Source: Gemmatimonadota bacterium (lineage in GTDB: Bacteria; 4572-55; J002). Taken from it: DNA of 64,000 nucleotides. Both the position numbers and the translations under genes were made by a program. How positions within the stretch are numbered: position 1 is the first letter of the stretch; each line of letters starts with the position of its first letter. The DNA lies in contig RFFQ01000003.1 of the NCBI GenBank assembly GCA_003697105.1, positions 25,939 through 89,938 of the forward strand. Direction: 5' to 3'. The notes below the pieces were generated by a model. That model saw nothing but the letters and a program-made list of their open reading frames with translations. It had not been told where the DNA came from and ran no database searches. Below are positions 3,195-27,610 of this stretch, one piece after another.

Positions 3195-4229
3195 TCAGAC
3201 CCATCCCTGACTTTTCAGAGTTTCGCCTTCAGCACTAATCACCAAGCCCTCGCAAGAGGGCATTTGATTGATAAAATGGATACCCTGCTCTGGGGACATC
3301 ACAAAGACGGTTGTAGATAATGCATCGGCTTCCATAACCGAACGTGCCCGCACGGAAACACTGGCATTCAACTGCGGGGATTTCCCGCTCACGGGGTTGA
3401 CAATATGGTGGAATAGCTTCTCTTGATCGTAATAAATTTCATAATTTCCGGAGGTAGCCACCGCACCGTCATTCATGGCGAAAATTGCCGGGTAGTGTCC
3501 TTTTTTGGCGGGGTCTTCCACGGCAACCGTCCACGCATGAGCACCTTCTTTTTTCCCTTGCGTGATAATATCTCCACCCGCATTGATCAAGAAATGTTCA
3601 ACCCCATATCGCCGGAGCACCGCCGCCGCCCGATCCACAATGTAGCCTTTCGCGATGCCATCCAAGGTGATACCCATACCCGGTTTGGCAAACCGAATCC
3701 CCGATATATCCCAGTGAATGTTACGTGCATCCACACGGGTTAAAACGGATTCCAATTCATCCCCGACCAACTGACCTTTTGTGGACTGAAACAGATCGAC
3801 CAGTGGTAGTACCGTGATGTCAAATAAACCGTGGCTGAGCCGGTGATAGCGCAATGATTCCTGTACCAGATTCATCATTTCAGGTGGGGGATGATCCAGC
3901 GAACCCGTCTTGTTCAGGTGAAAAAGAGGGGAATCACTATCATGCCGACTCAAGATGGCACTCAGCCGGTCAATTTCGGCATACGCCTGGCCCATCGCCT
4001 CTTCTGCCCGTTGAGCAGAGGCATCAAAAAGGGTCATGGAGACGAACGTCCCCATCTGGATTCGATTATCGGCAACATGGTACAGTCTGCGGTTAAATTT
4101 AAAGAGACCGGTGGTGGCTTGTAACGTTCCACCAGCCGCCATACCAAGTGTTAAAACCCCGCAGGCTTTGAGGAACGTTCGCCGGTCCCATTGGAGATGT
4201 TGTGGATTACGATTTTCGGTTTCAGTCAT
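3195..4229 (-). CDS. apbE: FAD:protein FMN transferase
   Basis: 344 residues from the ATG at 4229; a longer frame reaches 4361 but would overlap the upstream small gene more. ApbE attaches FMN covalently to a Thr of RnfG and RnfD, which fits its place at the end of the rnf operon. Visible signs: a Tat-type RRTFLKA at about residue 16, then FKFNRRLYHV, MGTFVSMTLF, GLFDITVLPLVDL, TLDGIAKGYIVD (Mg/FAD-binding region), NAGGDI and HHIVNPVSGKSP. The Tat signal suggests the enzyme acts in the periplasm, attached or free. Its start overlaps the preceding cysteine-rich gene by 8 bases, so the two are translationally coupled. Confidence 0.93.
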   Translation of the reverse strand: MTETENRNPQHLQWDRRTFLKACGVLTLGMAAGGTLQATTGLFKFNRRLYHVADNRIQMGTFVSMTLFDASAQRAEEAMGQAYAEIDRLSAILSRHDSDSPLFHLNKTGSLDHPPPEMMNLVQESLRYHRLSHGLFDITVLPLVDLFQSTKGQLVGDELESVLTRVDARNIHWDISGIRFAKPGMGITLDGIAKGYIVDRAAAVLRRYGVEHFLINAGGDIITQGKKEGAHAWTVAVEDPAKKGHYPAIFAMNDGAVATSGNYEIYYDQEKLFHHIVNPVSGKSPQLNASVSVRARSVMEADALSTTVFVMSPEQGIHFINQMPSCEGLVISAEGETLKSQGWV

Positions 4230-4425
4230 GTTGAACCCACTCCATTTTCGAGTTATCAGATACCGTATGGTCACATTTGTTCTTAAAAAAACAACTGAGG
4301 CACTCCTTGCGGAATAGCTCGGTGCAGCCCTTTGAGCCTTTGTGCGCCAGCAATTGAACACCCAACCAACTGATCATCAATAGCGGAATCAGGACTCCCG
4401 CCAAAAGGAAATGGTACAGCATCAA
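4222..4425 (-). CDS. Small cysteine-rich membrane protein, NqrM-like position and layout
   Basis: 67 residues: one membrane helix (about 4-27), then four cysteines in the pattern C-x7-C-x2-C-x4-C (GCTELFRKECLSCFFKNKC). It overlaps rnfA (ATGA) and apbE. NqrM (DUF539), needed to mature the Fe site between NqrD and NqrE of Na+-NQR, has the same size, single helix and four cysteines and also lies beside apbE. RnfA and RnfE are the homologues of NqrD/NqrE. The spacing of the cysteines is not the NqrM one, so this is an analogy from position and layout and not a firm family call. Confidence 0.5.
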   Translation of the reverse strand: MMLYHFLLAGVLIPLLMISWLGVQLLAHKGSKGCTELFRKECLSCFFKNKCDHTVSDNSKMEWVQHD

Positions 4426-5009
4426 CTACCACCCCCTAAGCCGGCAAAGCCCATGAACGCCATGGAAAGAATACCCCCCACCAACAGCACAATGGCAATC
4501 CCTTTGACAATACTCGGTGTATCTGCCAGATCAAGCTCCTCGCGGATACCCGCCATCAGCACCAGCGCCAAGGAAAACCCCGCCCCAGCACCCAGCGCAA
4601 AGAAGATAGACTGAACAAGATTATACTCCCGGCTGGTCTGAAAGAGTGCCAACCCTAAAATAGAACAGTTGGTGGTAATCAGCGGTAAGAAAATCCCTAA
4701 TGCCCGAAAGAGTGCCGGGCTGAATTTTTTGATGAACATTTCCACTAATTGAACAGAGGAGGCAATCACAACGATATACGAAATCAAGCGCAAATAGGGT
4801 GCACCTATCGCTTCCAGCGCAATGTTTATCCCAAAAGCACACAGGGAACTGACCAACATCACAAATGTGACAGCCATGCCCATCCGCGAAGCCGTCTCAA
4901 TCTTACCAGAAACACCCAAAAAGGGGCAAATTCCGAGAAAATAACTCAAAACAAAGTTATTGATCAAGGCGGCACTGATAAAAATAAATCCGGGCGAATC
5001 TACACTCAT
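4422..5009 (-). CDS. rnfA: Rnf complex membrane subunit RnfA
   Basis: 195 residues, six predicted membrane helices, the RnfA/NqrE family. Conserved Cys in NNFVLSYFLGICPFLG (helix 1) and in TTNCSILG (helix 4) match the positions that, with RnfE, hold the intramembrane [2Fe-2S] cluster. Rnf couples electron flow between reduced ferredoxin and NAD to Na+ or H+ transport. It overlaps rnfE by 4 bases (ATGA) and the small cysteine-rich gene likewise. Told apart from RnfE by the FLGV-S motif and the overall similarity of the N-terminus to RnfA. Confidence 0.93.
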   Translation of the reverse strand: MSVDSPGFIFISAALINNFVLSYFLGICPFLGVSGKIETASRMGMAVTFVMLVSSLCAFGINIALEAIGAPYLRLISYIVVIASSVQLVEMFIKKFSPALFRALGIFLPLITTNCSILGLALFQTSREYNLVQSIFFALGAGAGFSLALVLMAGIREELDLADTPSIVKGIAIVLLVGGILSMAFMGFAGLGGGS

Positions 5010-5626
5010 ACCTCACTCCTTTTCACGGATCGTTCCCGTAGCCATGCAAACAACATCAACCAGCCCCCGAGTACAAAAAAAGCGCCGCCGGGCAAGACCA
5101 TAATCACCCACGGTTCAAAATTGGCAGGCATGACCCGGAAACCGGCAAAGGTACCGCTACCGAGGACTTCGCGCACCACACCGAGACTCAACACCGCTAT
5201 GGTAAATCCGAAACCCATCCCCAGCGCATCCAAAATCGATTTGAATACCCCGTTTTTGGAAGCGAAAGCCTCTGCTCGGCCCAGAATGATGCAATTTACC
5301 ACAATCAGCGAAATAAACGCGCCCAACGCTTTATGAACTTCCACACTGATTGCCTGAATGAGGTATTCCACAACGGTCACAAAGGTGGCAATAATCAAAA
5401 TATAGGTAGCAATCCGTACCTGTTTGGGGATCAGCTTACGAATCAAGGAAACCGAGATATTGGACATCACCAGTACAAATGTGGTTGCTAAACCCATTGC
5501 CAGTGCATTAATGACAGAATTTGTCACCGCCAGCACCGGACACATTCCCAGCGCCATCACAAAAACGGGGTTTTCCTTCCAGATACCTTTCAAAAAAACA
5601 TCCATGTTTTGCGGTTCTGCGGTCAT
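5006..5626 (-). CDS. rnfE: Rnf complex membrane subunit RnfE
   Basis: 206 residues, RnfE/NqrD family. N-terminus KGIWKENPVFVMALGMCPVLAVTNS is the family signature, with the first half-site Cys; the second is in LIVVNCIILGRAEAFA. It pairs with RnfA as inverted-topology partners that hold an Fe-S centre in the membrane. It lies between rnfG (9-base gap) and rnfA (4-base overlap) in one operon. Confidence 0.93.
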   Translation of the reverse strand: MTAEPQNMDVFLKGIWKENPVFVMALGMCPVLAVTNSVINALAMGLATTFVLVMSNISVSLIRKLIPKQVRIATYILIIATFVTVVEYLIQAISVEVHKALGAFISLIVVNCIILGRAEAFASKNGVFKSILDALGMGFGFTIAVLSLGVVREVLGSGTFAGFRVMPANFEPWVIMVLPGGAFFVLGGWLMLFAWLRERSVKRSEV

Positions 5627-5635
5627 TTTTACCTC

Positions 5636-6340
5636 TCAATTTGCGGGGAAATCGGCCGTTTTCAACTGATCCAGATGGCGAGCAATGATGGGAATCACTT
5701 TCTCAGTACTGCTTCTGAGAATTTTGGAAACCGCGGTAGAGGAAATGGTCGCTCCCGTAATCGTATCAATCTGCCAAGGTTTATTCTTTTCCCCCGGCTT
5801 GACCCACTCAATAGGGTGAGTAATACGACTCTTATCCGGCGTCAGTGATACATCTAATGCTTCAAAATTCTTCAAAAAATGCGGGTCTTTTTCAATTTTA
5901 TCACCCAGACCGGGGGTTTCCTTACTTTCCAGCACTTTCAACCCGATGATCGCCTCTTTTTCCGGTGAATAGCCATATACTAACCGGATCAACTCCTGAA
6001 AGCCTTGCCCGCTGGCGGCTACAGCGACACCCATCAAGTGATGGTCTTCCCCGTAACAGGCATAAATTTGGGCATTCATTGCCGCTTCACCGGTGACTTC
6101 CACTAAATTGGAATCTTCAATTTTATAGGCGATCTTGTGCGTCGCACCTTTGATCACCTCATTAAAAAGTGCTTTTTCCAGATACACCGCTTTGTTTTTA
6201 TTGATAACCGGTAGGGTGAGCTGGTACGTCAGAACGATTAAAATTCCAGCTAAAAAACCGACCCCACCCATAGCGGCAATCATGTGGAAACTACTTGCCT
6301 GCGGAACTTCTGAAATAGGTTGTGTTTGGATTTCTGCCAT
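5636..6340 (-). CDS. rnfG: Rnf complex FMN-binding subunit RnfG
   Basis: 234 residues: a membrane anchor (about 20-43) and a periplasmic FMN-binding domain. The flavinylation motif is visible as DTITGATISST near residue 195; the second Thr of TGAT-x-[ST] carries FMN through a phosphoester bond added by ApbE. It passes electrons between RnfD and the rest of the complex. ESKETPGLGDKI is the other family signature. It lies 4 bases downstream of the yciI-like gene, with rnfE following. Confidence 0.93.
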   Translation of the reverse strand: MAEIQTQPISEVPQASSFHMIAAMGGVGFLAGILIVLTYQLTLPVINKNKAVYLEKALFNEVIKGATHKIAYKIEDSNLVEVTGEAAMNAQIYACYGEDHHLMGVAVAASGQGFQELIRLVYGYSPEKEAIIGLKVLESKETPGLGDKIEKDPHFLKNFEALDVSLTPDKSRITHPIEWVKPGEKNKPWQIDTITGATISSTAVSKILRSSTEKVIPIIARHLDQLKTADFPAN

Positions 6341-6344
6341 GACC

Positions 6345-6659
6345 TCAACCTACCGTTGTCTGTTTGATCAATGCCACATGATACGGGAACAGTTCACCCG
6401 TCATAATTCCTCGGGTGATTGCGGGGTCTTGGTTCATAAAGGCTTCTGCCGCTTCATCAGTTTCCGCCTCAAAGATCACAATCCCAAACGCATGTTTTGC
6501 CGCATTCAGGGTTCGACCGGCTAAAATTACCGTTCCGGCATCACAATGTGTTTTTAAGTGATTAAAATGATCCGTAATAATTTGATTGTCAGCTTCCGTC
6601 CATGCCGAATCATCATGTAACCGCGGAATCAACGAAAGTTTATACAGATACTGGTTCAT
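6345..6659 (-). CDS. YciI-like (YCII-related) domain protein inserted in the rnf operon
   Basis: 104 residues of YCII-related fold: YLYKLSLIPRL start, HFNHLKTHCDAGTVILAGRTL, FGIVIFEAETDEAAEAFMNQDPA, then a short C-terminal strand. The pattern HxxHL..G...LAGR and the DPA loop are those of the family, small ferredoxin-like alpha/beta proteins with mostly unknown roles. Its start overlaps the rnfD stop (ATGA), and rnfG follows after 4 bases, so it is co-translated with Rnf subunits. A YciI protein is not part of known Rnf complexes; whether it binds the complex is unknown. Confidence 0.75.
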   Translation of the reverse strand: MNQYLYKLSLIPRLHDDSAWTEADNQIITDHFNHLKTHCDAGTVILAGRTLNAAKHAFGIVIFEAETDEAAEAFMNQDPAITRGIMTGELFPYHVALIKQTTVG

Positions 6660-7657
6660 TGGGTCTCCTTCACCGCCCCGTAAATTCGGGGTTGGGTCAA
6701 TCGATTAATGATCGGGGTAGCGGCATTCATCAATAAGATGGAATACATGACGCCTTCCGGCAAACCGCCAAACTCCCGGATGACAATCACCAAAATTCCG
6801 ATTCCGATGCCAAAAATCCAGCAACCGAGCGGTGTTACCGGCGATGTTACCATATCGGTTGCCATAAAGACCGCTCCCAGCACCAATCCTCCCGAAAGCA
6901 GATGAAAGATCGCCGGTGGAAACGCCTCTGGGTTCAGAAGATGCAGTACAGACGCTAAAATAAAAACTGTGGCAAAAATGCTGACCGGAATCCGCCAGTT
7001 AAACAGGTTCCGCACCGCCAGATACAACCCCCCCATCAAAATAACAACGGCGCATGTCTCCCCTAAAGACCCCGCGGTATTGCCAAGAAAGAGTTCCATC
7101 ATACCGGTCGGTTGGTTACCCCACTTCATCATTGCTAGCGGAGTTGCGGCGGTCGTGGCATCAATGCCGGTACTGGTCATAAATGGTAGCGCAAAATTTG
7201 CCCCGCGTACCTCCCAAAAACCACTAAAATTGCCTTGTGGACTCCACGTCGTCAGAGAAACCGGGAAAGCGGCTTGCAGAAAAGCACGCCCGACCAATGC
7301 CGGGTTGAACACATTATAGCCAATGCCACCAAAAATCAACTTTCCCAGCCCAATGGAAGCAACCCCACCGACAAATGCCATCCATAACGGTATCCCCGGG
7401 GGTAAAGTTAATGCCAGTAGAATTCCGGTAATCATGGCACTCCCGTCCCGAATGGTACGTTGGGTAAAAACCCATTCGGTTAAGATCGCTCCAGCCACAC
7501 ATGCCCCGGTCACCAGCAGAGCACTAATTCCAAAATAGTACGTCGCTGCCAACACCACCGGAACAAGGGTAAAGACAACCTGCCACATAATAAACGGAGT
7601 AGAGGTTGCATCCTTCAAAAACGGCGATGTCGAAAGCAATAAAGGTTGTGTTTTCAT
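6656..7657 (-). CDS. rnfD: Rnf complex membrane subunit RnfD
   Basis: 333 residues from the ATG at 7657 (AGGATAAG lies 5 bases upstream; a longer frame begins at 7678). RnfD/NqrB family with about nine helices; start LSTSPFLKDATSTPFIMW, and GIPLWMAFVGGVASIGLGKLIFGGIGYNVFNPALVGRAF is present as a family block (about 115-155). TTAATPLAMM is the place where Thr carries covalent FMN in RnfD/NqrB ([S/T]-x-A-T-P-L). It is separated from rnfC by 70 bases, the only real gap inside the operon. Confidence 0.93.
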   Translation of the reverse strand: MKTQPLLLSTSPFLKDATSTPFIMWQVVFTLVPVVLAATYYFGISALLVTGACVAGAILTEWVFTQRTIRDGSAMITGILLALTLPPGIPLWMAFVGGVASIGLGKLIFGGIGYNVFNPALVGRAFLQAAFPVSLTTWSPQGNFSGFWEVRGANFALPFMTSTGIDATTAATPLAMMKWGNQPTGMMELFLGNTAGSLGETCAVVILMGGLYLAVRNLFNWRIPVSIFATVFILASVLHLLNPEAFPPAIFHLLSGGLVLGAVFMATDMVTSPVTPLGCWIFGIGIGILVIVIREFGGLPEGVMYSILLMNAATPIINRLTQPRIYGAVKETQ

Positions 7658-7727
7658 AAGGCTTATCCTGCATTCCACAAGACGTCATTTATCATTACGT
7701 CATTCATCATTGCCCACTGCCAACTAT

Positions 7728-9077
7728 TCACTGTTTACGGGCTTGTTTTTCCCGGATCATCCCTTTGGCAACCCGGAAGCGTTGCACCAACGGAATATTT
7801 GAAGGACAGACGTACGAGCACGATCCGCACTCCACGCAATCCATCAAGTGATAATTTATCATTTCTTCATACCGTTTGACCCGCGCCAGTTGGCCCAGCC
7901 GGCTGGGGTTAAGGAAAACCGGGCACGCCTCCACACAGCGAGAACAATGGATACACGCATATTCATGGCGCGGACGGATGAGTTCTTCGGTCAGACAGAC
8001 AACCCCAGAGGTACCTTTCATGACCGGCACATCGAGAAACACCTGCGGTGCACCCATCATGGGACCGCCAAACAAAATCTGACGGGTGTCATCGGTGATA
8101 CCACCACAATAAGCGAGCAGATCGCTGAGTTTGGTGCCAATTGGCACGGTCAAATTTGCCGGACGGTGGATACCCGGACCGGTTACGGTCACCACTCGCT
8201 CAATTAAGGGCTGGTTGAAGCGGACGAGATCACCAATCCCAGCCATCGTTCCCACATTATTGACCACAACTTCGGCATCAATCGGCAATTTCCCACTCGG
8301 AACCTCCCGGTTAAGTACCGCCGTAATCAGCATTTTCTCCGCACCTTGGGGATATTTCGTCTGTACCGGCACCACTTCACAGTTTAAATCGGACGGCACG
8401 GTTGCTTGCAGACGTGAAATGGCATCGGGTTTATTGGTCTCCACGCCAATATAGGTTTTTTCCGCACCCAAAATCTTCATACAGACCCGGATACCCAGAT
8501 AAATCGAATCGGTTTGTTCCAGCATCAGCCGGTGATCCGTCGTCAAGAACGGTTCGCACTCTGCCGCATTGACAATAAAAAATTTAGCGGTTTTTCCTTT
8601 AGGAGGGGTCAGTTTCACGTGCGTCGGAAATGCCGCCCCACCTAAGCCGACAAATCCACCGGACTGAATAAACTGAACCAACTCTGGCGGGGACAGATGC
8701 TCCCAATCCAGTTGTTTTTCATTATAAAGCGTTTGGGGTGAGAAGGGGTCCCGCTCAATCACAATCGATTCCACCATCTTGCCGGTGGGATGGTGGCGCA
8801 GTTCAATCCCTTTGATAGTACCCGTCACGGATGCGTGAAGTGGAACGGAAACAAAACCACTTGCCTCCGCAACCGGTTGCCCCCGAAAGACCTTATCCCC
8901 TGCCTTAACAATGGGTTTGGAGGGGGCGCCTAAATGCTGGCTCAGCGGCAAAACATATTCATCCACAAATGGCATCCGCTCAATGGGTAAATCTTTGGTA
9001 AAATCTTTGTATTCAGAGGGATGAATCCCGTGCTTAAACGTTTTCGCCGGATTCAAAAAATGAAGTAGTGCCGTCAT
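7728..9077 (-). CDS. rnfC: Rnf complex NADH-interacting subunit RnfC
   Basis: 449 residues from the ATG at 9077, 3 bases after the stop of the permease gene. RnfC carries FMN and two [4Fe-4S] clusters and faces NAD(H). Visible: HPSEYKDFTKDLPIER N-terminus, a biotinyl-like segment (PIVKAGDKVFRGQPV), GGFVGLGGAAFPTHVKL and NAAECEPFLTTDHRLM (NuoF-like nucleotide and flavin region, about 130-190), SLBB-like part, then CIHCSRCVEACP and CVECGSCSYVCP. Length is normal for the short form of RnfC without the long repeat tail of enterobacteria. Confidence 0.94.
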   Translation of the reverse strand: MTALLHFLNPAKTFKHGIHPSEYKDFTKDLPIERMPFVDEYVLPLSQHLGAPSKPIVKAGDKVFRGQPVAEASGFVSVPLHASVTGTIKGIELRHHPTGKMVESIVIERDPFSPQTLYNEKQLDWEHLSPPELVQFIQSGGFVGLGGAAFPTHVKLTPPKGKTAKFFIVNAAECEPFLTTDHRLMLEQTDSIYLGIRVCMKILGAEKTYIGVETNKPDAISRLQATVPSDLNCEVVPVQTKYPQGAEKMLITAVLNREVPSGKLPIDAEVVVNNVGTMAGIGDLVRFNQPLIERVVTVTGPGIHRPANLTVPIGTKLSDLLAYCGGITDDTRQILFGGPMMGAPQVFLDVPVMKGTSGVVCLTEELIRPRHEYACIHCSRCVEACPVFLNPSRLGQLARVKRYEEMINYHLMDCVECGSCSYVCPSNIPLVQRFRVAKGMIREKQARKQ

Positions 9078-9079
9078 AA

Positions 9080-10870
9080 TCAAAAAAACCAGAAATACGT
9101 GAAAAGAGTAACACCAATGCCGGTCATGACATTCATGGGAACACCAATTTTGAGAAAGTCACGGAAGCAATAACCCCCCGGACCATAAACCATTAAATTC
9201 GTCTGGTAGCCAATCGGTGTAGCAAAACTAGCCGATGCCGCGATGGTCATCGGGATAACCAACAATTTGGGATCAAAACTCAGGGTTTGTGCCGCTTCTA
9301 GGGCAATCGGGAACATGATCGCGGCGGCGGCGTTGTTGGTAATCATCTCTGTGTAAATACTGGTCAGAAAAAAAATCCCAGCAATAACTCCCACCGGACC
9401 AAAAAATGAGACGAGGTCAATCATGTGGGTTGAAATCCATGTTGCTAAACCGGAATTTTCCAATGCCCGCCCGACACCAAAGGCAGACGCTATCGCCAAC
9501 AACACCCCCCAATCCACCGATTTTTGAGCGGTCTCCACACTGATGATGCGCAACGCCACCATCAATACTGCCGTACACGCCGCGGCTAACACCATGGGCA
9601 TGATGCCGGTGGTTGCCACTAAAATCATCAATATCAGCAGTCCAAGCGCCAGATTTCCTTTCCATCTGGGCTTAGAGAAGACCTCCAAACTGGGTGAAAC
9701 CAATAAAAAATCCGGCGAGTGGTACCAGCGGGCATCAAACCCCTTTTTGGACAAAATAAAGAGTGTATCACCCGGGCGAAAAACAATATCCCCCACTTTT
9801 TTGTTAATCCGGTGTCCGCTACGATGAATCGCCAGAATCACGGCATCAAACCGGCTGCGAAAGTTGCTTTCCCGCACAGATTGCCCCACCAGCGAGGAGC
9901 GTTCCGAAATGACCGCCTCATACGTATTCAGTTGGTCGGAGTCAAAATCGGCAAGGTTGAACTCACTATCCCGCACCGCATACAAACCGTGCATTTTTTG
10001 CAGTTCGTAAATCGTCTCCGGCAATCCCGTAAAAAAGAGCCGGTCTTTCTCCAAAATAATCTCATCCGGTGCAACGGGCGCGATAATTTCGCCATCCCGA
10101 ATAATCTGAAATAAAAATAAGCCCTGCAAATGGCGGAGTTTGGCATCATCAACGGTCTGGTTGAGTCCCGGGTAATCTGCCGAGACACTCATTTCTACCA
10201 CAAATTCACGGGTGTGGTCACCCAAATCAACAATGGGGTCTTTCTTTGACGGCAATACAAAATAGCTCACCAATGATAACCCGAACAACAAGATCACGGT
10301 CAGCGGCAAGCTGATTTTGGTGAGTTCAAAGAATGAAAACCCATCCAGCCCATGATCCAGCAACATCCCATGCACCACTAGATTGGTGCTAGTGCCGATC
10401 AACGTACAAGTCCCCCCTAAAATTGCCGCGTACGAAAGCGGAATCAGGAACTTCGATGCCGGTTGGTCCATCCGTTTTGCCCAGTTTTTGACCACCGGAA
10501 TCAACGTTGCCACAATGGGGGTGTTGTTCAGGAACGCCGACAGGGTTGCCACCGGTATCATCAACCGCAGATACCGTAAAACCGTGGGGGTCTGGCGGTC
10601 TCCGAGTAAACCGTAAATGAGTTTATCAAATGAACTGGAGCTTTGCAACGCCGTGCTGACCACAAACAAAAACCCAACCGCCAACATGCCTTTGTTGGCG
10701 AATCCGGCAAATGCCTCATCCACACTAACGACACCCCCAATCGTCAATAAGAGCAGTGCCCCCAAGATCGTAATATCCGGTTTGAACAGCTCGGTTGCCA
10801 GCACAATAGTCATCAACAGCAGGATGAAGGCAGTGTACCAGAGTTCAAAATCCATGTTTTCAAGGAACAT
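9080..10870 (-). CDS. SLC13-family permease with two TrkA-C domains
   Basis: 596 residues: N-terminal membrane half (about 1-200; FLNNTPIVATLIPVV and GTSTNLVVHG), two soluble TrkA-C/RCK_C domains (about 215-290 and 305-385), then a C-terminal membrane half with TNNAAAAIMFPIALE and ATPIGYQTNLMVYGPGGY. This is the SLC13/DASS (ion transporter superfamily) fold with the duplicated helical-hairpin motifs; substrates include dicarboxylates and sulfate, usually with Na+. It sits tightly between the giant PFOR-like gene (5 bases) and rnfC (TGA then ATG 2 bases on), so it is in the Rnf operon. A link between Na+ pumping and solute uptake is an attractive inference. Confidence 0.85.
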   Translation of the reverse strand: MFLENMDFELWYTAFILLLMTIVLATELFKPDITILGALLLLTIGGVVSVDEAFAGFANKGMLAVGFLFVVSTALQSSSSFDKLIYGLLGDRQTPTVLRYLRLMIPVATLSAFLNNTPIVATLIPVVKNWAKRMDQPASKFLIPLSYAAILGGTCTLIGTSTNLVVHGMLLDHGLDGFSFFELTKISLPLTVILLFGLSLVSYFVLPSKKDPIVDLGDHTREFVVEMSVSADYPGLNQTVDDAKLRHLQGLFLFQIIRDGEIIAPVAPDEIILEKDRLFFTGLPETIYELQKMHGLYAVRDSEFNLADFDSDQLNTYEAVISERSSLVGQSVRESNFRSRFDAVILAIHRSGHRINKKVGDIVFRPGDTLFILSKKGFDARWYHSPDFLLVSPSLEVFSKPRWKGNLALGLLILMILVATTGIMPMVLAAACTAVLMVALRIISVETAQKSVDWGVLLAIASAFGVGRALENSGLATWISTHMIDLVSFFGPVGVIAGIFFLTSIYTEMITNNAAAAIMFPIALEAAQTLSFDPKLLVIPMTIAASASFATPIGYQTNLMVYGPGGYCFRDFLKIGVPMNVMTGIGVTLFTYFWFF

Positions 10871-10875: not shown

Positions 10876-13800
10876 TTAAGTGTGATCACCATTACCCGCT
10901 AACGTTAGCAGGTACTCCCGGAAACTGGCACGGAAATTCGGGTCGTTGCCCACATACGCCATCAATTTTCGGCGTAGCCGATCCAGATAAATTTGCCCGT
11001 GTTGTTGGTCAAGAGTGGCGAGCTGGGCTTCATAATCCGCAATTAAAGCGGCTTTTTCCTGCTCAAACTGATCGATCATTTCGCGTTTCGCCTGTTCGAT
11101 GATCTGCTCATTTGCCGGGGAATAAATTCCGGCTAATTCCTGCAATAGTCGCCAAAAGCGGTGTCTATCTTCAATTTCTGCAATAAGTTGTGGCGAAAGC
11201 AACGCCCGTAATTTCTCACCATTCTGAGTGGTAAACATCACGTAAGCGGCATAATACGCCCGATCCGCCACCGGAAGTTGTAGATAATCTGCTAGGGGTA
11301 ATTGATTTTGATCCCATTGCTGTTTTGGCAAAAGATTGATTTGCGACCGGAACCGGGCTTCTGTTAGGGCAAAATCGGCGAATGTTAAGCCATTAAACAG
11401 ATCAGACTCCACTGCTGGATTGCCCGCCAGATTCAATACCGGTTGTCCCGGCGGGTACGTAAACACCGGAAACGTCCGGCTTTCCACCGCCAAGCGCCCT
11501 TGAGCAAACACCTGATCCGGAGCAATCCCATGGCTCGCCGGTTCGGGAGTGTAAATATTCAAAACCGCGGGACCGTCCCACAGCACCGCATCCCTCACCC
11601 CTTTGAGCAAATGACCGGGAGTCCCGACACTACTTTGCACCACATAGACTCCGCGGTGCATTAGCGCCAGCAAGCCAAATTCCCGCCGGTACCGCCGTGC
11701 CGCGAAACTCGCGCCGTTAGACTGCCCGCCAGTTGCCGTGAAGCCCTGTGTATCCAGCAGCACTATCTTGACCGGCAGGTGGCTTGCCATCAGGCGGGAA
11801 ACCGCTTCAAATCCGGCTTCACCGAGTGCGCCATCACCCCCGACTACCAGTAGCGGCGGGCACAATTCCCGCTCTGCCGGACTAAAATCTTTGATGCTAA
11901 ACTGCGCAAAAAAGGCATCGTGTTCTGCGGCACGATAAGCATCATCAAGTTCTAACTCCGCCTGCCGGATAACCTTAAACGTCTCCGCCATTTTGCGTTG
12001 AATGCCTGCTAGCAAGCCTTCCGCCACAGCGGCGGCATCACCGTACCCTTGATTCGCCCATGGAAACGGAAACGGATTGTAGGGATACGTGCCCCCCCAA
12101 AAGAGTACACTACCCGTAGCTAACGCCATTGCCAACCGCGCCCGGCCGTCACCGTTAAAACCGGTTTGATACCGTTGCTGAAGGTCGATCAACTGTTGCC
12201 GCAAGTTTGTTAATCGTTCCAGTTGGCGTTTATCCAATTGGGGGAGCGGCGCATCGGTCGCCAACGCCACTAGCGTTTGGGGGTCAATGTGTTTTTGTTC
12301 CAATGCGGCGAGTTTTTTCCCAAACAGGTCAAAGTCATTGATATGGAGGGAATGGGTCATCTTCCCCTGTAATTTCAACTCGATCTGGTTCACCAGATCG
12401 GATAATCTTGCGCGGAACTGTTCGATTCTGGGCTGCATAACGGCTTCAATGGCAGCCGCCACCAGATGAATGGCAATTTTAGACCCACTACCGGGGAAGG
12501 CACCATCCCCACCGATCAGCGAATGGTACACTTTCGGGTTTAACAAGCGGTAACCTTCGGTTTGGAGGTCGTCTTTATCGATCAGCGCTTCAATCTGATC
12601 CGTTGAGGGGGCGGGTAACTGCCGTAAAAAGTCACCCTGCCGTTGTGCCGATTCTAACCGTTCCGCAGTCTGGGCGACCATCTCAATTGCATTTTCGGGG
12701 CAAACCGCCGCACACAAGCCACACATTTTACAGGCTTGCGGGTCCACCGCTATCGTGAGAAGACCTTGCCGAAACGAGGTAAACGGGAAACCGGCAACCT
12801 CACCCCGCAATTGATTGAAATCATGCTGAATCGCTGCTTGTTGGTCCCCTTTCAAGTTCATCAGGGACATCAGCTTGTCGAACGCTTGCTGTAACAGGAC
12901 ATCGACCGTTGCCAACTCGCTGGAATTCGCTTTATCAAGGATTTTCTGAGCTTGCTTTGCCAGATGATCTGCCATGCGTTGAAGTTGAATCATCGACTCG
13001 CCACGTGCCTGACATGCTTTGATCCCCGTTTGAATGATGGAACCAATATGTTGCGCCGTTACGGGTAGCGCCATATCGGGGCAGGTGGTCCAGCAGAGGT
13101 TACAGCCGGTACACCGGCAATGATCAATCTGCGGGAGTTGGGTGCAATACGCACTCATATCACGAAACGCCGCACTGCGTGCCGGAATGACGCCTGCCGC
13201 TACAAACGGGTCGGGCAGCGCCTGATCCGGTTGCGCCGTTTCATAAAAATAACCCACCGAATCCCAAAAACGGGCTAAATCTGGCAGTTTGCCATCGGGT
13301 TGGCTGACCTGCTTCACCGTCCAAGGGGGTGCCGGTTCAAATATGCCCACCCCTTCATGATCGGGCATCGCTTGCCAGTCCAAAGGCTGTACCATTTCTG
13401 CACCGTGGATCATCATCTTGAAATTGAGGTCAATCACCTTTTTGGATTTCCCAAACTGTGCTTCTAATTGGCGGCGATAATGCCCGCGTAGCGGCTCTAA
13501 ATCATCAGCGGAGAAATCCTCACAGACCTTAAAAAACGCCCCGATCAAGGCTTGATTTGCTAACCGGTCATCATACCGCCCATCTGCCGCCATCGATTGT
13601 AAAATGTGCTGGGCATTGATCAGGTAAATACGGGCGTTTAACGCCTTGACCTGCCGCTTGACTTTATCCGGCAGGCGTAACCAAAGTTGGTCGGGAGTCT
13701 GTTCAGATTGTACCAGTAGGATACCGTTTTCCTTGAGATGGGCAAAATTAGCGGCATTATGAAAAAGCGTGGTGTGGGAAAAGAGAATCGCATCCACTTT

Positions 13801-17811: not shown

Positions 17812-17901
17812 TGCTTGTGATCTCTTTCTTATGGCTAACATGATGAATATCCTTAGAAAACCACGCAAAAACAATGGCGCACCTTATGTATGGACTCAAA
17901 T

Positions 17902-19128: not shown

Positions 19129-19138
19129 AGAACCCTCC

Positions 19139-19357: not shown

Positions 19358-20221
19358 TTAATGAACGTGTTCCTGTTTTGGCTTGGCAAAATCAGTCTTC
19401 GCCCACAATTCAGGCATTTGCTGACCTTCAATCCAGACGATAGCTTGGGTGGGACAGCGATAGGTCGCAATGGGGGTCTGCAACTCCATTTTAAGCATAT
19501 TCAGCACGGGGATGTTGTTTTCCATGGTGAGCAAGCCTTCCGGCGCATCGGCGACACAGCGCCCGCAAGCGGTACAGGCTACCTGACATTGTGCCAGGGC
19601 TTGGTCACCCTCCAGTTGGGATTTACACTGAACCACCAGACACCGGCTGACCGGATAGAGTTCAAACAGGTCTTTGGGGCAGGCGCGGACACAATCCCCA
19701 CAGGCAGTACATTTCGCCACATCGACAATGGGCAAGCCGGTATCCGACATGCGGATGGCATCAAAGGTACAAGCATCAAAGCAATCCCCCAGCCCCAGAC
19801 AACCATAGGTACATGCTTTGGATCCCCCCGTGACGACCGCCGCCGCCCGGCAAGAGGAATACCCCTCGTAAGTACCGACCTGATACGCGACATCCGCACC
19901 TCCGGCACAGAGCAACCGGGCAACTTTACGCTCGGCTTCACCTGCATCGATTCCCAGATAGGTGGCAATATAAGTTGCCGTTTCGGCACCGCCGACCGGG
20001 CACTGGCTCGGTTTGACTGCCCCCTCTACCACGCTCTCGGCAAAGGCACGGCAGCCGGCAAGCCCGCAAGCGCCGCAATTGGCGCCGGGCAGATAATCTG
20101 CCACCACCTCAATGCGAGGGTCTTCATACACCTTCAATTTGGAGTTGGCAATCACCAACACAATTGCCAGCGCCACACTCAGTCCTGAAATAAATCCAAT
20201 GGCTGTAATCATCCCGCGCAC
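19358..20221 (-). CDS. rnfB: Rnf complex ferredoxin-type subunit RnfB
   Basis: 287 residues: N-terminal membrane helix (about 5-26), then the RnfB four-Cys domain LPGANCGACGLAGCRAFAE with C at PSQCPVGG, a further C-rich region (CAGGADV, SCRAAAVVTGGSKACTYGCLGLGDC), CTACGDCVRACPKDLF, and CTACGRCVADAPEG. RnfB is the entry point for electrons from ferredoxin. In the last motif the fourth Cys of CxxCxxCxxxCP is replaced (VADAPEG), so that cluster needs a ligand from elsewhere or has changed type. Unusually it is 8.5 kb from rnfC and is co-transcribed with OFOR genes: it starts 3 bases after the degenerate PFOR-like gene. Confidence 0.94.
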   Translation of the reverse strand: MRGMITAIGFISGLSVALAIVLVIANSKLKVYEDPRIEVVADYLPGANCGACGLAGCRAFAESVVEGAVKPSQCPVGGAETATYIATYLGIDAGEAERKVARLLCAGGADVAYQVGTYEGYSSCRAAAVVTGGSKACTYGCLGLGDCFDACTFDAIRMSDTGLPIVDVAKCTACGDCVRACPKDLFELYPVSRCLVVQCKSQLEGDQALAQCQVACTACGRCVADAPEGLLTMENNIPVLNMLKMELQTPIATYRCPTQAIVWIEGQQMPELWAKTDFAKPKQEHVH

Positions 20222-20224
20222 CCT

Positions 20225-22534: not shown

Positions 22535-22577
22535 TTTTTCCTCATCACAAGAATAGAAAAATGACTAATGCTAAAGG

Positions 22578-23555
22578 TTAGGCGACTTTTTCGGCTTGGG
22601 GCACTACACTAAATTTATCAAATTCAGCTTCCAAATTTTCGCGAAGACGGTCAATGGTCATCACGTGTTTGGGACGCCGTAGTTCACAATATTGACGGAC
22701 TTGGGGGTTATGGTACAACAGACCAATCGGTACATGTTCGCGGTCTTCCGCCAATTCGCGCGCCCGATGAATATTACTTGGATCATGTTCGATTTGCCGT
22801 TTGTAAATTCGCGCCATTGTATCATCAAGGACCATTCCGTTTTCATGGACAAGCATTTCCATCCGGTCTGGGTTGGTGATCATGGGGTCAAAATGGGTGG
22901 GGGCAAATGCGGGGCAACGCTGCAAAATGCGGATAAACGCAAAGCCGGGATGGTGATAGGCTTTTTCGATCAATTGGGCTAACAAACTGGGCATCCATTC
23001 CGCTACTTGTGCCACAAAGGAAACGTTGGTAATCCCCAACGTGACGGTCAGGGGATTCAGGGCTCGCATATACGCCCCCCGGGGTGTCGTGTTGGTCTTG
23101 AACCCTTCCGGGGTCGTTGGCGAGCTTTGTAATTTTGTTAAGCCATAGAGATTGTTATCGTGGACCATTACGACCATGCGCATATTCATCCGTACCGCAT
23201 GAATCCAGTGAGCCGTTCCAATACTGAAGCAGTCGCCATCACCGGTATTGACAAAAATGTGCAAATCCGGGCGACGAATGCGAATGCCTTGAGCAATGGG
23301 AAATGCTCTACCATGCAAGCCATGAAACCCGTAGGTTTTCATATAGTGGGGGAACCGGCTAGAACAGCCAATACCGGAAACAAACACCGTTTTTTCAGGC
23401 GGTAATTGTTCATCTCGGCAGAGCTTTTGGACTGCCGTTAAAATGGCACTATCCCCGCACCCCGGACACCAACGGGGAATATTACTTTGGTAATCTTCCA
23501 TGCGGTAATATTCATGGTCTAATTCCGGTATGCTATCCAATTGGAAACCAAACAT
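22578..23555 (-). CDS. korB: 2-oxoacid:ferredoxin oxidoreductase beta subunit (intact TPP site)
   Basis: 325 residues. Cluster ligands CPGCGD (near 32), SGIGCSS and QRCP are present; the TPP-Mg motif is canonical (NTGDGDCFSIG near 105 and DNNLYGLTK), and SPTTPEGF follows. With the alpha/gamma subunit at 25718 it should oxidise a 2-oxoacid (2-oxoglutarate or a relative) with CoA to acyl-CoA, CO2 and reduced ferredoxin. It has the same length and start as the beta half of the fusion just upstream, so the two arose by tandem duplication. The C-terminal 60 residues, after FRILQRCP, form a tail longer than in minimal KorB. Confidence 0.92.
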   Translation of the reverse strand: MFGFQLDSIPELDHEYYRMEDYQSNIPRWCPGCGDSAILTAVQKLCRDEQLPPEKTVFVSGIGCSSRFPHYMKTYGFHGLHGRAFPIAQGIRIRRPDLHIFVNTGDGDCFSIGTAHWIHAVRMNMRMVVMVHDNNLYGLTKLQSSPTTPEGFKTNTTPRGAYMRALNPLTVTLGITNVSFVAQVAEWMPSLLAQLIEKAYHHPGFAFIRILQRCPAFAPTHFDPMITNPDRMEMLVHENGMVLDDTMARIYKRQIEHDPSNIHRARELAEDREHVPIGLLYHNPQVRQYCELRRPKHVMTIDRLRENLEAEFDKFSVVPQAEKVA

Positions 23556-23571
23556 GACGGTTCTCCTTCCT

Positions 23572-25698
23572 TTATTTCAGATGGTCAATCTGTTCATCAA
23601 TCATTTTACGAATATCTTTTGCTTTGAAAGCCATTCCGGTGGCACTCGACCAACTCTCAATATCGATTAAATATCGTGCCCGCAACAACACTGCCAAACT
23701 GGAAAATCGACGATTTTGAGCATTGATCAGCTCATCTTCTGGATCATCTGAGTAATTCAATTCCACAGCGACAACGCGTTTGAAGCGGGTTAGAATCTCA
23801 CCGATACCACCGGGCAAGGGTTGGATAAATTTAAGATGCAACGCCGAGACCTTCAATCCATCTGCTTGAGCTTGTTTCACGGCGTCAGCAATAGCGGCTT
23901 GGGTACTTCCCCACCCCACGAGGAGGAGGTCACCTTCTGGTTCGCCGGTCACCGGTGGGGTTTTTAGAGTGTGTTGGAATGCCGCCAGTTTCAAACTACG
24001 TGCTCGGAGGCTTTCTGCCACAACTTTGGGTTTAACGGTCATTTCGGAGGCTTGATCGTGGGTCATTGCGGTAACGGTGTGCATTCCGCCCGGTTGACCC
24101 GGCAAAATACGCGGCGATAAACCGGTCTGGGCATCCCACAGGTATGGCTTTTGACCCGTTTCTACCGGACGCAAATCCAGCTTGGTTTCCAACACGGCTT
24201 CACTGACCACCGGTCGAGCAAAGGTCGCTTTGGTTTTTACCAAATCCGCATCGGGAAGAACAATCACCGGCAAGCGGAATTTTTCGGCAATTTGCCGCGC
24301 TTCAATCAGGGTATAGTAACAATCTTCCACAGAGGTCGGTGCGATAACGACACGAGGTGAATCCCCGTTGCCCCCATAGATCGAGAGCATCAAATCGCCC
24401 TGTTCCACTTTGATGGGCATCCCGACACTCGGTCCCGCCCGTTGCACATCCACCACGACCAACGGAATTTCCGCCATGGAGGCAAGGGCAATACCTTCTG
24501 ATTTTAGGAGCATACCCGGGCTGGAGGTAATGGTCGCCGCGCATTTACCGGCATAGGACGCCCCTAGGGCAAATGAACACGCGGCAATCTCATCTTCTGC
24601 CTGATGCAGCACCCCGCCCACATTTTCATAAACACGAGCCAGATATTGCACCGTGCTGGTGGCCGGGCGAATCGGATATACGGCGCATACCTCCATACCA
24701 GACGCCATCAAACCGAGCGCAAGTGCCTCGCTGCCTTTCAGTTCCAGTAACCCGTCTTCGGTTTGAAAGCGATCAAATTCGGCTTCAATACCTTCACGAA
24801 TCCGTTGGGGCGTAAAGGTGTCCTGAGGCGCCATTAAATCTTCGTAGCAGGGCTGGGTTTTATCCTGATACAAAATGCCAATCGGAATAAGGTCGGTACG
24901 GTAGGCAAGTTCAAAAGCTCCGGTTAAATCCCGCGGGTTGTGTTCCTGTTGGTGTTTGAGGATACGTTTTAGGGCGGGGTCGGGATGAATCCCATCCGGA
25001 TGAGTGAGGAGTAACAAGCGATTCGGGTCTGGGTTGAGGTGTTCCTGTGAAAAGCGAGCACAGCGCTGCAAAATGCGGATGAATGAAAACCCTTTATGGT
25101 GGTATGCTTGCCGGATGACGTCATATAAGACTGCCGGCATCCACTCCGCCACTTGCGCGACAAAGGACGGGCGGTTTGATAACGCGATGGCTAACGGGTT
25201 CAGCGGTGGGAGTTTCATCCCGTGCGGGGTGGAATCCGTGACCAAACCGGTGGGTGCTGTCGGAGAGGCTTCGGTTTTAATTTCCCCATAGATATGGTTA
25301 TCATGAATGAGTGCCACCATATCCATGTTGTAGCGCATGGCGTGTATCCAATGTCCGGCACCGATGCTGAACGTATCCATATCTCCCATTGCCACAAAAA
25401 CATGGAGGTCGGGACGGCGAATTTTAATACCTTCCGCAATCGGGAAACCTCGCCCATGCAAGCCGTGAAAACCATAGGTCTTGACATACAGTGGAAATTG
25501 GCTGGCACAGCCGGCACCGGAGACAAACACCACGTTTTCTGGAGCCAGTTGTTCATCCCGCATCACTTTTTGGATTGCCGTGAGTACAGCATGGTCACCA
25601 CAGCCGGGACACCACTTGGGTTTCTGGCGGAGATAATCCTCTAGGCTGTAATAATCCTCATCGACATGGATCATACGATCCAGATTCACTCCAAACAT
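23572..25698 (-). CDS. Fused beta-alpha OFOR paralogue with altered active sites
   Basis: 708 residues: a KorB-like part (1-325) joined to a KorA-like alpha part (about 330-708) without a gamma domain. Fe-S ligands are kept (CPGCGD, SGAGCAS, QRC). The TPP-Mg motif reads AMGDMDTFS, not GDGD, and DNHIYGEIK instead of DNNLYGLTK. In the alpha part YPITP is YPIRPATS and QRGGPSTGLPTK is QRAGPSVGMPIK. So both halves of the active site have changed while the electron-carrying part has not. It is either a structural/electron-relay paralogue or an enzyme for another substrate. It lies between korA and korB in one operon. Confidence 0.85.
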   Translation of the reverse strand: MFGVNLDRMIHVDEDYYSLEDYLRQKPKWCPGCGDHAVLTAIQKVMRDEQLAPENVVFVSGAGCASQFPLYVKTYGFHGLHGRGFPIAEGIKIRRPDLHVFVAMGDMDTFSIGAGHWIHAMRYNMDMVALIHDNHIYGEIKTEASPTAPTGLVTDSTPHGMKLPPLNPLAIALSNRPSFVAQVAEWMPAVLYDVIRQAYHHKGFSFIRILQRCARFSQEHLNPDPNRLLLLTHPDGIHPDPALKRILKHQQEHNPRDLTGAFELAYRTDLIPIGILYQDKTQPCYEDLMAPQDTFTPQRIREGIEAEFDRFQTEDGLLELKGSEALALGLMASGMEVCAVYPIRPATSTVQYLARVYENVGGVLHQAEDEIAACSFALGASYAGKCAATITSSPGMLLKSEGIALASMAEIPLVVVDVQRAGPSVGMPIKVEQGDLMLSIYGGNGDSPRVVIAPTSVEDCYYTLIEARQIAEKFRLPVIVLPDADLVKTKATFARPVVSEAVLETKLDLRPVETGQKPYLWDAQTGLSPRILPGQPGGMHTVTAMTHDQASEMTVKPKVVAESLRARSLKLAAFQHTLKTPPVTGEPEGDLLLVGWGSTQAAIADAVKQAQADGLKVSALHLKFIQPLPGGIGEILTRFKRVVAVELNYSDDPEDELINAQNRRFSSLAVLLRARYLIDIESWSSATGMAFKAKDIRKMIDEQIDHLK

Positions 25699-25717
25699 CA
25701 GATATCCCCTTTTCGTT

Positions 25718-27610
25718 TTAGGGCGTCGCGAAACGCTCCCGGATCATCTGTTCAATATCACCCGGTTTCATGGGTTGGCCATACACATTTGACCACGAAT
25801 CTACATCCACCAGATACCGCGCCCGGAGTAACCACGCTAAATTGGAATAACGACGATTATCGGCGGTAAAAAAATCATCTTTGGGATCAGAATAGTTAAT
25901 TTCCACACAGATAGTCTGTTTGAATTTACGCAGAATATCACCAATTCCCGATGCCATCGGTTGGAGGAACTTGAGGTGCAAGGAGGAGACACTTAACCCA
26001 TCCTTCCGCACCCGCATGACCGCTTCTTCAATAGCGCCTTTGGTGCTTCCCCACCCTAAAATAAGCAGGTCACCGCCTTCCGGATCGCCCATCACTTGCG
26101 GTGTTTTTAATGTTTTTTGGAACGCGGCTAACTTACGGCTCCGCGCTTCACACCCCGCCTGATTGATCCAGTTGTCATACGCCACTTTACTATTTTGATC
26201 ATGCGCCAAACCGGTAACGGTGTGCATTCCATTCGGTCGCCCCGGTATAAAGCGCTCCGACAGACCGGTCACCGGGTCCCAATCATACGGTTTTTTGCCT
26301 TCGGGAACGGGCGATTGGTCGATTGGCGGCGCGACCCAATCTTCATTAAATTTAGGACGAGGGAAGAGTTGCTGACCCGTTGCCAGATTCGCATCAGACA
26401 GCACAATCACCGGCATCCGGAAGGTTTCAGCAATTTTACGTGCTGTAATGATGGAATAAAAGCAGTCTTCAATGGTTGCGGGAGCCATCACAATTTTGGG
26501 AGCATCCCCCGGCTCCCCGAAAATGACCGAGAGCAAATCCCCTTGCTCCACTTTGGTGGGCAAACCGGTACTGGGACCCCCCCGCTGAACATCGACCAGC
26601 ACTAATGGAATTTCTGCCATCACTGCCAAACCAATCAACTCCGTTTTGAGGGCTTTTCCGGGACCGGAAGTAATAGTCACCGCGCACTTGCCTGCATACG
26701 ATGCCCCGATAGCAAACGCACACGCGGCGATCTCATCTTCCGCCTGATGAACAACTCCGCCAACATTCTCAAATACATCGCTCAGATAATGCGAAGCCGA
26801 TGTTGCCGGCGTGATCGGGTACATAGCGCAAACTTCCATCCCCGATGCCATTACCCCCAATCCGATAGCGATATTCCCGTTGACCACAATCTGCGGCTCG
26901 TCAATATGGGCAGAAGGCACATTAAAACAAACATCCAAATTTGCCTCTGCCCAATTATAACCGGCTTCTAAAAGTTGAATATTCGCCTCAATCACCTTTT
27001 GGCTCTTTTTCTGAAAGGTAAATTCAATCTGATCCCGCGCGAGTTGAAGATCGCGTTGGTAAATGCTACACAGCATTCCCAGAACAAACATATTCTTTCC
27101 TTTACGTGGATTTTCGACGATCTTCAAGCACTCTGTTTCCATCGGAATTTCTTTTACCTGATACCCATCCTCTTCCAGTTGGGCAACGGTTTGCGTATAT
27201 AGACGAACCACCTCGGGGTCATGATGGTCGCGCCACATGCTTTCCAATAAGATGATCGCACCGGGTTTCAGATTCCCCGATTGTACTCGCCCCAACAGCA
27301 CTTGCTCGTTAAACGCCACCACTAAATCCGCTTGATCTCCTGCATTAGTAACGCTAAAAGAACCAATACGAATCCGATTCCCACTCGCACCCGCAATACT
27401 GCGTGGCGGCGGCTGAATTTCAGCCGGAATAATCTCAACCGTCCAGATTCCGTTACCCATTTTGGCACAGATCGCCCCAAAAGATTGCGCGGCTTTCTGT
27501 GCCCCTTCCCCGGAGTCACTCACGATCTCAACAATATGTTCAGGCACGTCGACGATATGTTTCCCTGTTCCAGTTGTCTCTCGCGCGGAATCTGTCACAT
27601 TTACAGACAT
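25718..27610 (-). CDS. korA: 2-oxoacid:ferredoxin oxidoreductase, gamma-alpha fusion
   Basis: 630 residues, the common gamma+alpha fused form: gamma domain about 25-200 (GNRIRIGSFSVTNAGDQADL, LKPGAIILLES), alpha domain about 240-630. Active-site blocks are intact: CAMYPITPATSAS, VHQAEDEIAACAFAIGASYAG, TSGPGKALKTE, QRGGPSTGLPTKVEQGDL. It would bind the 2-oxoacid and CoA and share TPP with the beta subunit (22578). It is first in the operon korA, korBA, korB, PFOR-like, rnfB, small gene, ATP-grasp. A promoter candidate lies at 27718-27745, and AAGGGA precedes the ATG. Confidence 0.92.
   Translation of the reverse strand: MSVNVTDSARETTGTGKHIVDVPEHIVEIVSDSGEGAQKAAQSFGAICAKMGNGIWTVEIIPAEIQPPPRSIAGASGNRIRIGSFSVTNAGDQADLVVAFNEQVLLGRVQSGNLKPGAIILLESMWRDHHDPEVVRLYTQTVAQLEEDGYQVKEIPMETECLKIVENPRKGKNMFVLGMLCSIYQRDLQLARDQIEFTFQKKSQKVIEANIQLLEAGYNWAEANLDVCFNVPSAHIDEPQIVVNGNIAIGLGVMASGMEVCAMYPITPATSASHYLSDVFENVGGVVHQAEDEIAACAFAIGASYAGKCAVTITSGPGKALKTELIGLAVMAEIPLVLVDVQRGGPSTGLPTKVEQGDLLSVIFGEPGDAPKIVMAPATIEDCFYSIITARKIAETFRMPVIVLSDANLATGQQLFPRPKFNEDWVAPPIDQSPVPEGKKPYDWDPVTGLSERFIPGRPNGMHTVTGLAHDQNSKVAYDNWINQAGCEARSRKLAAFQKTLKTPQVMGDPEGGDLLILGWGSTKGAIEEAVMRVRKDGLSVSSLHLKFLQPMASGIGDILRKFKQTICVEINYSDPKDDFFTADNRRYSNLAWLLRARYLVDVDSWSNVYGQPMKPGDIEQMIRERFATP

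Follow-up and report, generated by a model that had tools for sequence, protein, structure and literature searches.

The window, a stretch of 64,000 nt, encodes all six Rnf subunits B, C, D, G, E and A together with five OFOR-type genes, which all share the minus strand (Table 1). The gene calls thus bear out the gene content given in an earlier note on this DNA, which left unmentioned the restriction-modification pair and the ATP-grasp and YCII genes.

Table 1. Features of the OFOR-Rnf cluster in the window (G001, the one further species of this class among the genomes examined)
Feature	Coordinates	Strand	Assignment
KorGA	25718..27610	-	Pfam POR and POR_N; TIGR03710 above cut-off; nearest solved structure 6n2n, Magnetococcus OGOR, E 3e-80
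KorBA	23572..25698	-	Beta-alpha fusion paralogue; altered active site, FeS cysteines kept
KorB	22578..23555	-	Beta subunit with TPP and [4Fe-4S]; no catalytic motif lost
P769	20225..22534	-	Fer4_13 above cut-off; BLASTP to PFOR1523 E 1e-28; PFOR fold Z 19.2
RnfB	19358..20221	-	FeS and Fer4 domains; TIGR01944 above cut-off; RnfB 7zc6 E 2e-57
ATP-grasp protein	17902..19164	-	Interrupted stretch; not a conserved member; absent in G001
EcoRV-like endonuclease	16987..17874	-	Insertion that does not belong to the system; absent in G001
D12 methyltransferase	16073..16990	-	Partner of the EcoRV-like endonuclease; insertion, not part of the system; absent in G001
PFOR1523	10876..15447	-	PFOR homologue; C-terminal 1124-aa model, PFOR Z 27.6
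SLC13/CitMHS-type transporter	9080..10870	-	Has TrkA_C domains; sits between PFOR and rnfC; not conserved in the cluster
RnfC	7728..9083	-	TIGR01945, 538 bits; RnfC tree
RnfD	6656..7678	-	TIGR01946
YCII gene	6345..6659	-	Between rnfD and rnfG
RnfG	5636..6340	-	FMN_bind; TIGR01947 E 3e-25, under its cut-off
RnfE	5006..5626	-	PF02508
RnfA	4422..5009	-	PF02508
ApbE-like flavin transferase	3195..4361	-	PF02424

The genes for an ATP-grasp protein, an EcoRV-like endonuclease and a D12 methyltransferase split the cluster between rnfB and PFOR, and this restriction-modification insertion makes co-transcription of the two halves doubtful. The PFOR has 1523 residues from its mechanical start, the 1518 residues given earlier reflecting a later start. 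RnfB has an N-terminal hydrophobic segment, as read from the sequence, followed by an FeS domain and ferredoxin-type cysteine motifs. The ApbE-like flavin transferase is expected to flavinylate RnfD and RnfG. No SLC13 transporter was found at the PFOR/rnfC position in the other loci read. A Hox-type [NiFe] hydrogenase, which could supply NADH, adjoins the cluster in the window genome.

An intact Kor enzyme and a putative tethered ferredoxin

KorGA is the fused gamma-alpha subunit of a 2-oxoacid:ferredoxin oxidoreductase, with intact PITP and GGPSTG motifs that are invariant over 64 loci, and the key residues of the CxxC, GxGC, GDGD and RC motifs of KorB are invariant in 72 loci. Together they carry the PITP threonine, the GDG...N TPP motif and the four beta-cluster cysteines, so that, judged by its motifs, KorGA-KorB is a catalytically intact enzyme. 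Its substrate is probably 2-oxoglutarate. The paralogue KorBA (708 residues) retains the FeS cysteines and has lost the GDGD and PITP of a catalytic OFOR, with GDMD and PIRP in their places and GEIK for GLTK. A beta-alpha fusion of G001, on another contig, shares 48% identity with KorBA and has GDGD intact and PITP changed to PIDP.

The AF2 model of P769 (pLDDT 87) predicts a folded region (residues 1-641), a disordered linker (residues ~644-687) and a ferredoxin-like tail (residues ~690-769), modelled with confidence, that has a CxxCxxC...C set. In 88 family members, on average 80% of the 45 residues preceding the tail are P, A, E, S, T, D, G or Q, and the four cluster cysteines of the tail are invariant in 51 sequences. 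Pfam gave no OFOR match in P769, only the Fer4_13 tail (26.9 bits against a cut-off of 24.5), and no canonical GDG-cluster A, NTGGQ or GGDG motif of a catalytic OFOR was found in the P769 of the window. A scan of genome contigs with P769 alone found no relative; for the tail searches a subset alignment was used, the wider alignment being too weakly conserved. Because P769 resembles the PFOR C-terminus (BLASTP E 1e-28) and, in its predicted structure, the PFOR fold (Z 19.2), it can be placed as a PFOR relative. On its sequence and model, P769 is a catalytically dead PFOR half, similar to domain VI, to which a predicted disordered linker joins a ferredoxin with one cluster. It was already described in the earlier note as PFOR-like with a ferredoxin tail and 3 bases ahead of rnfB, and both the tail and the 3-bp gap were confirmed.

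The KorGA-KorB-P769 set is also found without Rnf, adjoining NfnAB-like genes, and 50 loci with this set have no Rnf genes. Rnf was rejected as an obligate partner of P769, as one genome (G010) encodes KorGA-KorB-P769 but lacks any Rnf/Nqr gene. P769 thus looks like an adaptor that serves KorAB in general, not like a component of Rnf. RnfC-like genes upstream of korGA were likewise rejected as Rnf parts, one being PduS-like beside a PduT shell gene (L085) and another NuoF (L130).

PFOR1523 keeps three of the ten diagnostic active-site residues, the residues tested including the cluster A cysteines, T31 and N996, and all eight cysteines of the two ferredoxin-type [4Fe-4S] motifs of domain V. 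The model of its C-terminal part (pLDDT 78) matches the PFOR fold over 677 residues. An active PFOR was rejected, as the proximal cluster A and the substrate residues are lost. The same pattern is seen across 18 degenerate PFORs, in which 90% of the ferredoxin cysteines are kept, compared to 6% of the cluster-A cysteines, 27% of the TPP/substrate residues and 46% of the other invariant columns; 16 of them keep 8/8 ferredoxin cysteines. By contrast, the PFOR of G001 has merely 2/8 and that of L069 none, and there the PFOR cannot be a wire. The earlier idea that degenerate OFOR paralogues may act as wires is therefore supported in that clusters are kept where the catalytic centre is lost, and fails for these two PFORs.

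In one branch, which includes Gemmatirosa and Persicobacter, the Rnf-embedded PFOR is catalytically intact and bears a ferredoxin tail itself, and thus the degenerate scaffold looks like the derived state. The tail is present in 9 of 10 intact Rnf-linked PFORs and absent from 19 of 21 degenerate ones, whose clusters have P769 instead (Fisher p 2.5e-5, kinship ignored). The PFOR tree places catalytic loss essentially in one clade plus L051, and repeated independent loss was not found, the independent-pairs test giving no significant pairs. With about one ancient loss and one more, the correlation of tail and activity rests on few independent events and is not strong independent evidence.

A recurrent gene order and a separate Rnf branch

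About 40 loci, spread over many phyla, show the order korGA-korB-P769-rnfB-PFOR-rnfCDGEA or a permutation of it. Over the loci read, KorGA directly precedes KorB 70 times, KorB precedes P769 75 times, P769 precedes RnfB 31 times, RnfB precedes PFOR 37 times and PFOR precedes RnfC 26 times, all as immediate neighbours. In G001, the nearest relative, KorB-P769-RnfB-PFOR-RnfC-D-G-E-A are contiguous. Chance proximity of OFOR and Rnf genes was rejected, since the arrangement is so recurrent and none of 30 ordinary rnfC loci has an OFOR gene within ~1.5 kb. The search for the same gene order, as proposed earlier, found the large proteins beside rnf across many phyla, where their absence would have told against the idea, and it widened the picture from a single-lineage peculiarity to a widespread arrangement. 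Moreover, the RnfC tree separates 27 OFOR-linked from 33 ordinary RnfC (SH-aLRT 100). Judged by tree and linkage, the OFOR-linked Rnf is a separate, widespread Rnf subfamily.

A haem-copper oxidase is encoded by 14 of 15 sampled carriers, compared to 4 of 60 ordinary Rnf carriers (phylogeny ignored). Because almost every carrier has such an oxidase, the benefit may lie in keeping low-potential electrons off free, oxygen-reactive ferredoxin. OGDH E1 scores above cut-off in the window genome and 10 other carriers, and a role of OFOR-Rnf as OGDH replacement was therefore rejected.

A proposed 2-oxoacid-to-pump machine and its alternatives

Several interleaved OFORs that have lost the catalytic centre and kept the FeS clusters suggest one 2-oxoacid-to-pump machine with a tethered path. 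We consider it probable that this Rnf subfamily is fed by tethered OFOR modules and assembled jointly with its electron donor, a reading supported by the conserved linkage, the kept and lost sites, the predicted folds and linker, and the separate Rnf branch. The intact KorGA-KorB would oxidise the 2-oxoacid and pass electrons to the ferredoxin tail of P769, which might swing on its flexible linker from the KorB cluster to the following acceptor and back. PFOR1523 would serve as the docking body, its two [4Fe-4S] clusters relaying electrons towards RnfB. Rnf would then hand them on to NAD+ while pumping ions, or the whole path might operate in the opposite direction; both the docking and the order and direction of carriers we infer. 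As the ferredoxin is a domain tethered by a predicted linker, free diffusion is in principle not needed, in line with what the earlier note had supposed.

Ferredoxin metabolism links Kor and Rnf anyway, and P769 is also found away from Rnf. The cluster could thus be an ordinary functional operon in which KorAB reduces free ferredoxin that diffuses to RnfB, with P769 and PFOR merely raising local ferredoxin or regulating, and no stable complex. We regard this as unlikely, for many phyla retain PFOR between rnfB and rnfC, the ferredoxin is predicted to be covalently tethered, and the dead enzymes of 800-1600 residues keep just the electron-transfer cysteines. Less likely still, Rnf might spend the ion gradient to drive NADH electrons onto the tethered ferredoxin, with KorAB acting as a carboxylase in CO2 fixation or anaplerosis. 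It is established biochemistry that both KorAB-type enzymes and Rnf can run either way, the OGDH E1 of the window genome means that an oxidative route already exists, and the neighbouring hydrogenase could be a source of NADH; however, the branch with intact PFOR extends to Gemmatirosa and Persicobacter, which are not known as autotrophs. Very improbable is a third reading, in which the degenerate P769, PFOR and KorBA no longer have a function and are what is left, in decay, of an earlier PFOR-Rnf system. The degenerate PFORs do sit on very long branches, with 24-38% identity to the nearest intact homologue, and some copies are shortened or stripped of clusters (L069, L016). Nevertheless, long open frames persist in about 20 divergent genomes, the ferredoxin cysteines are complete in nearly all copies, the predictions are well folded and the order is conserved.

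Taking the tethered OFOR-Rnf machine further, we tentatively suggest, at somewhat less than even confidence, a new class of respiratory ion pump. It would be a membrane-bound 2-oxoacid:NAD+ oxidoreductase, in which pyruvate or 2-oxoglutarate oxidation is wired via tethered FeS domains, recycled from dead enzymes, straight into Rnf, and it would open low-potential 2-oxoacid chemistry to oxygen-respiring bacteria without exposed free reduced ferredoxin. If so, Rnf is not just a pump fed by diffusible ferredoxin, and one entire subfamily supplies the enzymes for its own fuel. Such a machine would also show plainly how enzymes can give up catalysis and become scaffolds for electron transfer, the active site lost and the clusters kept, and would help explain the persistence of Rnf and oxygen-sensitive OFORs in oxidase-bearing bacteria. 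Named strains carry Rnf-PFOR clusters, which opens the model to testing; among them are Persicobacter psychrovividus NBRC 101262 (L144) and Gemmatirosa kalamazoonensis KBS708 (L143), each with the intact type of PFOR.

Comparison with known systems

A search of the open-access literature found no description of OFOR-Rnf clusters or P769-type Kor partners, and within that literature the arrangement is apparently undescribed. The parts seen of a 2025 review of RNF/NQR make no mention of OFOR subunits (PMC12174285). The window shares with the known Rnf complex (RnfABCDGE, ferredoxin:NAD+ oxidoreductase) all six subunits, the FeS domains of RnfB and the 51K/SLBB/ferredoxin domains of RnfC, as well as the gene order B-CDGEA reported for Bacteroidetes/Chlorobi (PMC3534657). 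It differs in the PFOR homologue between rnfB and rnfC, the attached KorGA-KorB-P769 and the separate branch of RnfC. In the rTCA clusters of tubeworm symbionts, Kor and Rnf genes also lie in the same wider clusters (korABCD, flxABCD-hdrABC and rnfABCDGE), and electrons are proposed to be delivered directly to OGOR; the partner proposed there is Hdr-Flx, the OGOR is a four-subunit enzyme, and the sections seen do not mention a PFOR between rnfB and rnfC (PMC6315080).

The OGOR of Magnetococcus marinus (6n2n) resembles KorGA/KorB in its fused gamma-alpha and beta subunits with intact motifs, whereas in the window KorB is followed by P769, and across the loci the partner genes are those of Rnf or NfnAB. 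PFOR (6cin, 1b0p) shares fold and domain order with PFOR1523, and the Rnf-linked copies of one branch are intact; PFOR1523 is longer and lacks cluster A and key substrate residues, and relatives elsewhere have an extra C-terminal ferredoxin tail. OFORs with a built-in pyridine-nucleotide reductase include the phenylglyoxylate:NAD+ oxidoreductase PadEFGHI and the 2-oxoglutarate:NADP+ oxidoreductase of Azoarcus evansii. Though soluble and without an ion pump, these enzymes likewise wire a 2-oxoacid oxidase to its own acceptor module, comparable to the NfnAB-KorGA-KorB-P769 loci.

Organization of the locus and its Kor proteins

The 24-kb cluster on the minus strand runs in the order of KorGA, KorBA, KorB, P769 and RnfB, followed by an ATP-grasp gene, an EcoRV-like restriction-modification pair, a PFOR homologue (PFOR1523, 1523 residues) and an SLC13 transporter, and then by RnfC, RnfD, a YCII gene, RnfG, RnfE, RnfA and ApbE; ORF starts are uncertain because the ORFs were called mechanically. 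The earlier note named the genes correctly and was right that 3 bp separate P769 from rnfB, but it overlooked the interruption by the ATP-grasp and restriction-modification genes. The endonuclease matches PF09233 (E 8e-117) and EcoRV structures (E 3e-37). No further Rnf/Nqr PF02508 genes are present elsewhere in the genome (4.18 Mb, 97% complete).

All catalytic motifs are present in KorGA and KorB, the closest solved structure being Magnetococcus OGOR. In KorBA, GDGD is changed to GDMD and PITP to PIRP, and the FeS cysteines are retained; G001 has a β-α fusion as well. The predicted structure of P769 consists of a PFOR domain-VI-like body, a disordered linker and a ferredoxin; the modelled body resembles the PFOR fold with a Z-score of 19.2 over 245 residues, a single-chain prediction that is uninformative on protein-protein contacts. 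In two loci (L043 and L044), P769 is a full-length PFOR-like protein.

Features of the window and of compared loci
Feature	Location	Remark
EcoRV-like endonuclease and D12 methyltransferase	16073-17874	interrupt the OFOR-Rnf cluster
YCII-domain gene	6345-6659	between rnfD and rnfG; 4-bp overlap with adjoining rnf gene; window only
SLC13/TrkA_C transporter	9080-10870	between PFOR and rnfC; 4-bp overlap with adjoining rnf gene; window only
Hox-like NAD-linked [NiFe] hydrogenase (51K/2Fe-2S protein, two small ORFs, NiFe large subunit) and dihydroorotate dehydrogenase-like gene	28098-33842	divergent from korGA
G001 PFOR	L016:7083-11723	
PduS-like RnfC homologue and PduT-like microcompartment shell gene	L085:1377-3285	directly upstream of Calditrichales cluster
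NfnA/NfnB-like genes	L141:3413-4918	upstream of KorGA-KorB-P769
NfnA/NfnB-like genes	L108:11830-12753	upstream of KorGA-KorB-P769
NfnA/NfnB-like genes	L017:3601-6233	upstream of KorGA-KorB-P769

Degeneration of the PFOR homologues

Single-chain modelling suggests that PFOR1523 retains the PFOR fold (Z-score 27.6 over 677 residues); its sequence keeps three of ten active-site residues and all eight ferredoxin cysteines. Across 18 non-duplicate degenerate PFORs, retention is 90% for ferredoxin cysteines, 6% for cluster-A cysteines, 27% for TPP/substrate residues and 46% for other invariant columns, which, judged from sequence, is the profile expected of an enzyme turned electron relay. The exceptions in ferredoxin cysteines are G001 (2/8) and L069 (0/8); the G001 PFOR, despite 51% identity to the window copy, is perhaps on its way from electron wire to a scaffold alone.

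The ferredoxin tail is present on nine of ten intact Rnf-linked PFORs and absent from 19 of 21 degenerate ones, where it sits on P769 of the same cluster. Three intact-PFOR clusters possess a short, tailless P769 remnant between korB and rnfB. One clade of the tree holds 20 of the 21 degenerate PFORs, indicating what is in essence a single transition that then spread widely.

Distribution and physiology of the carriers

In G001, the sole other species of the class among the genomes searched, KorB-P769-RnfB-PFOR-RnfC-D-G-E-A is uninterrupted, lacking the restriction-modification pair, with 39-86% identity to the window proteins. Among 386 sampled genomes, 36 have P769/PFOR-like matches, and 15 of the 167 with RnfC above cut-off have such genes beside rnf. 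A ferredoxin-tail scan revealed at least 479 relatives, and the best 80 loci include Rnf-linked clusters in Calditrichota, KSB1, Bacteroidota, Gammaproteobacteria, Myxococcales, Latescibacterota, Gemmatimonadota, Polarisedimenticolaceae and others (names as in the sequence records, mostly metagenome-assembled genomes). In addition, Rnf-PFOR clusters occur on plasmids from Gemmatirosa kalamazoonensis and Persicobacter psychrovividus. Of the two Rnf-PFOR loci in one genome (G208), L046 and L047, one includes Kor-P769 and the other a tailed PFOR that is intact. At 30 ordinary rnfC loci, no OFOR gene lies closer than about 1.5 kb; in a quick tree, with ordinary RnfC picked mostly by best family score, 27 OFOR-linked RnfC separate from 33 ordinary ones (SH-aLRT 100).

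Haem-copper oxidase occurs in 14/15 OFOR-Rnf carriers versus 4/60 ordinary carriers above cut-off, the latter being strong RnfC matches in handle order with two passed over (Fisher p 8e-11, or 1e-9 when the carriers are grouped into families; phylogeny otherwise ignored). Tethering might shield low-potential electrons from oxygen. OGDH E1 was also found in 11 of 16 genomes searched.

Where Rnf genes are lacking (50 loci), KorGA-KorB-P769 mostly follows NfnA-like (34/50) and NfnB-like (36/50) genes; thus, P769 seems to be an adaptor passing KorAB electrons to various acceptor modules. Many of the loci with Nfn-like genes belong to Beta- and Alphaproteobacteria, where Propionivibrio dicarboxylicus, for example, has KorGA-KorB-P769.

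Proposed electron route

Considering the parts and their conservation, we propose that electrons would most likely pass from 2-oxoacid via KorGA-KorB, the P769 tail ferredoxin, the PFOR clusters and RnfB through Rnf to NAD+, accompanied by ion pumping, or that the whole route would be reversed. As known PFOR structures are dimers and P769 can be full-length PFOR-like, P769 and PFOR may form a heterodimer.

No description of an OFOR subunit in Rnf was found in the portions of the open-access literature consulted. Within the same portions, the nearest published idea is the direct electron delivery to OGOR by Hdr-Flx, proposed for tubeworm symbionts (PMC6315080).
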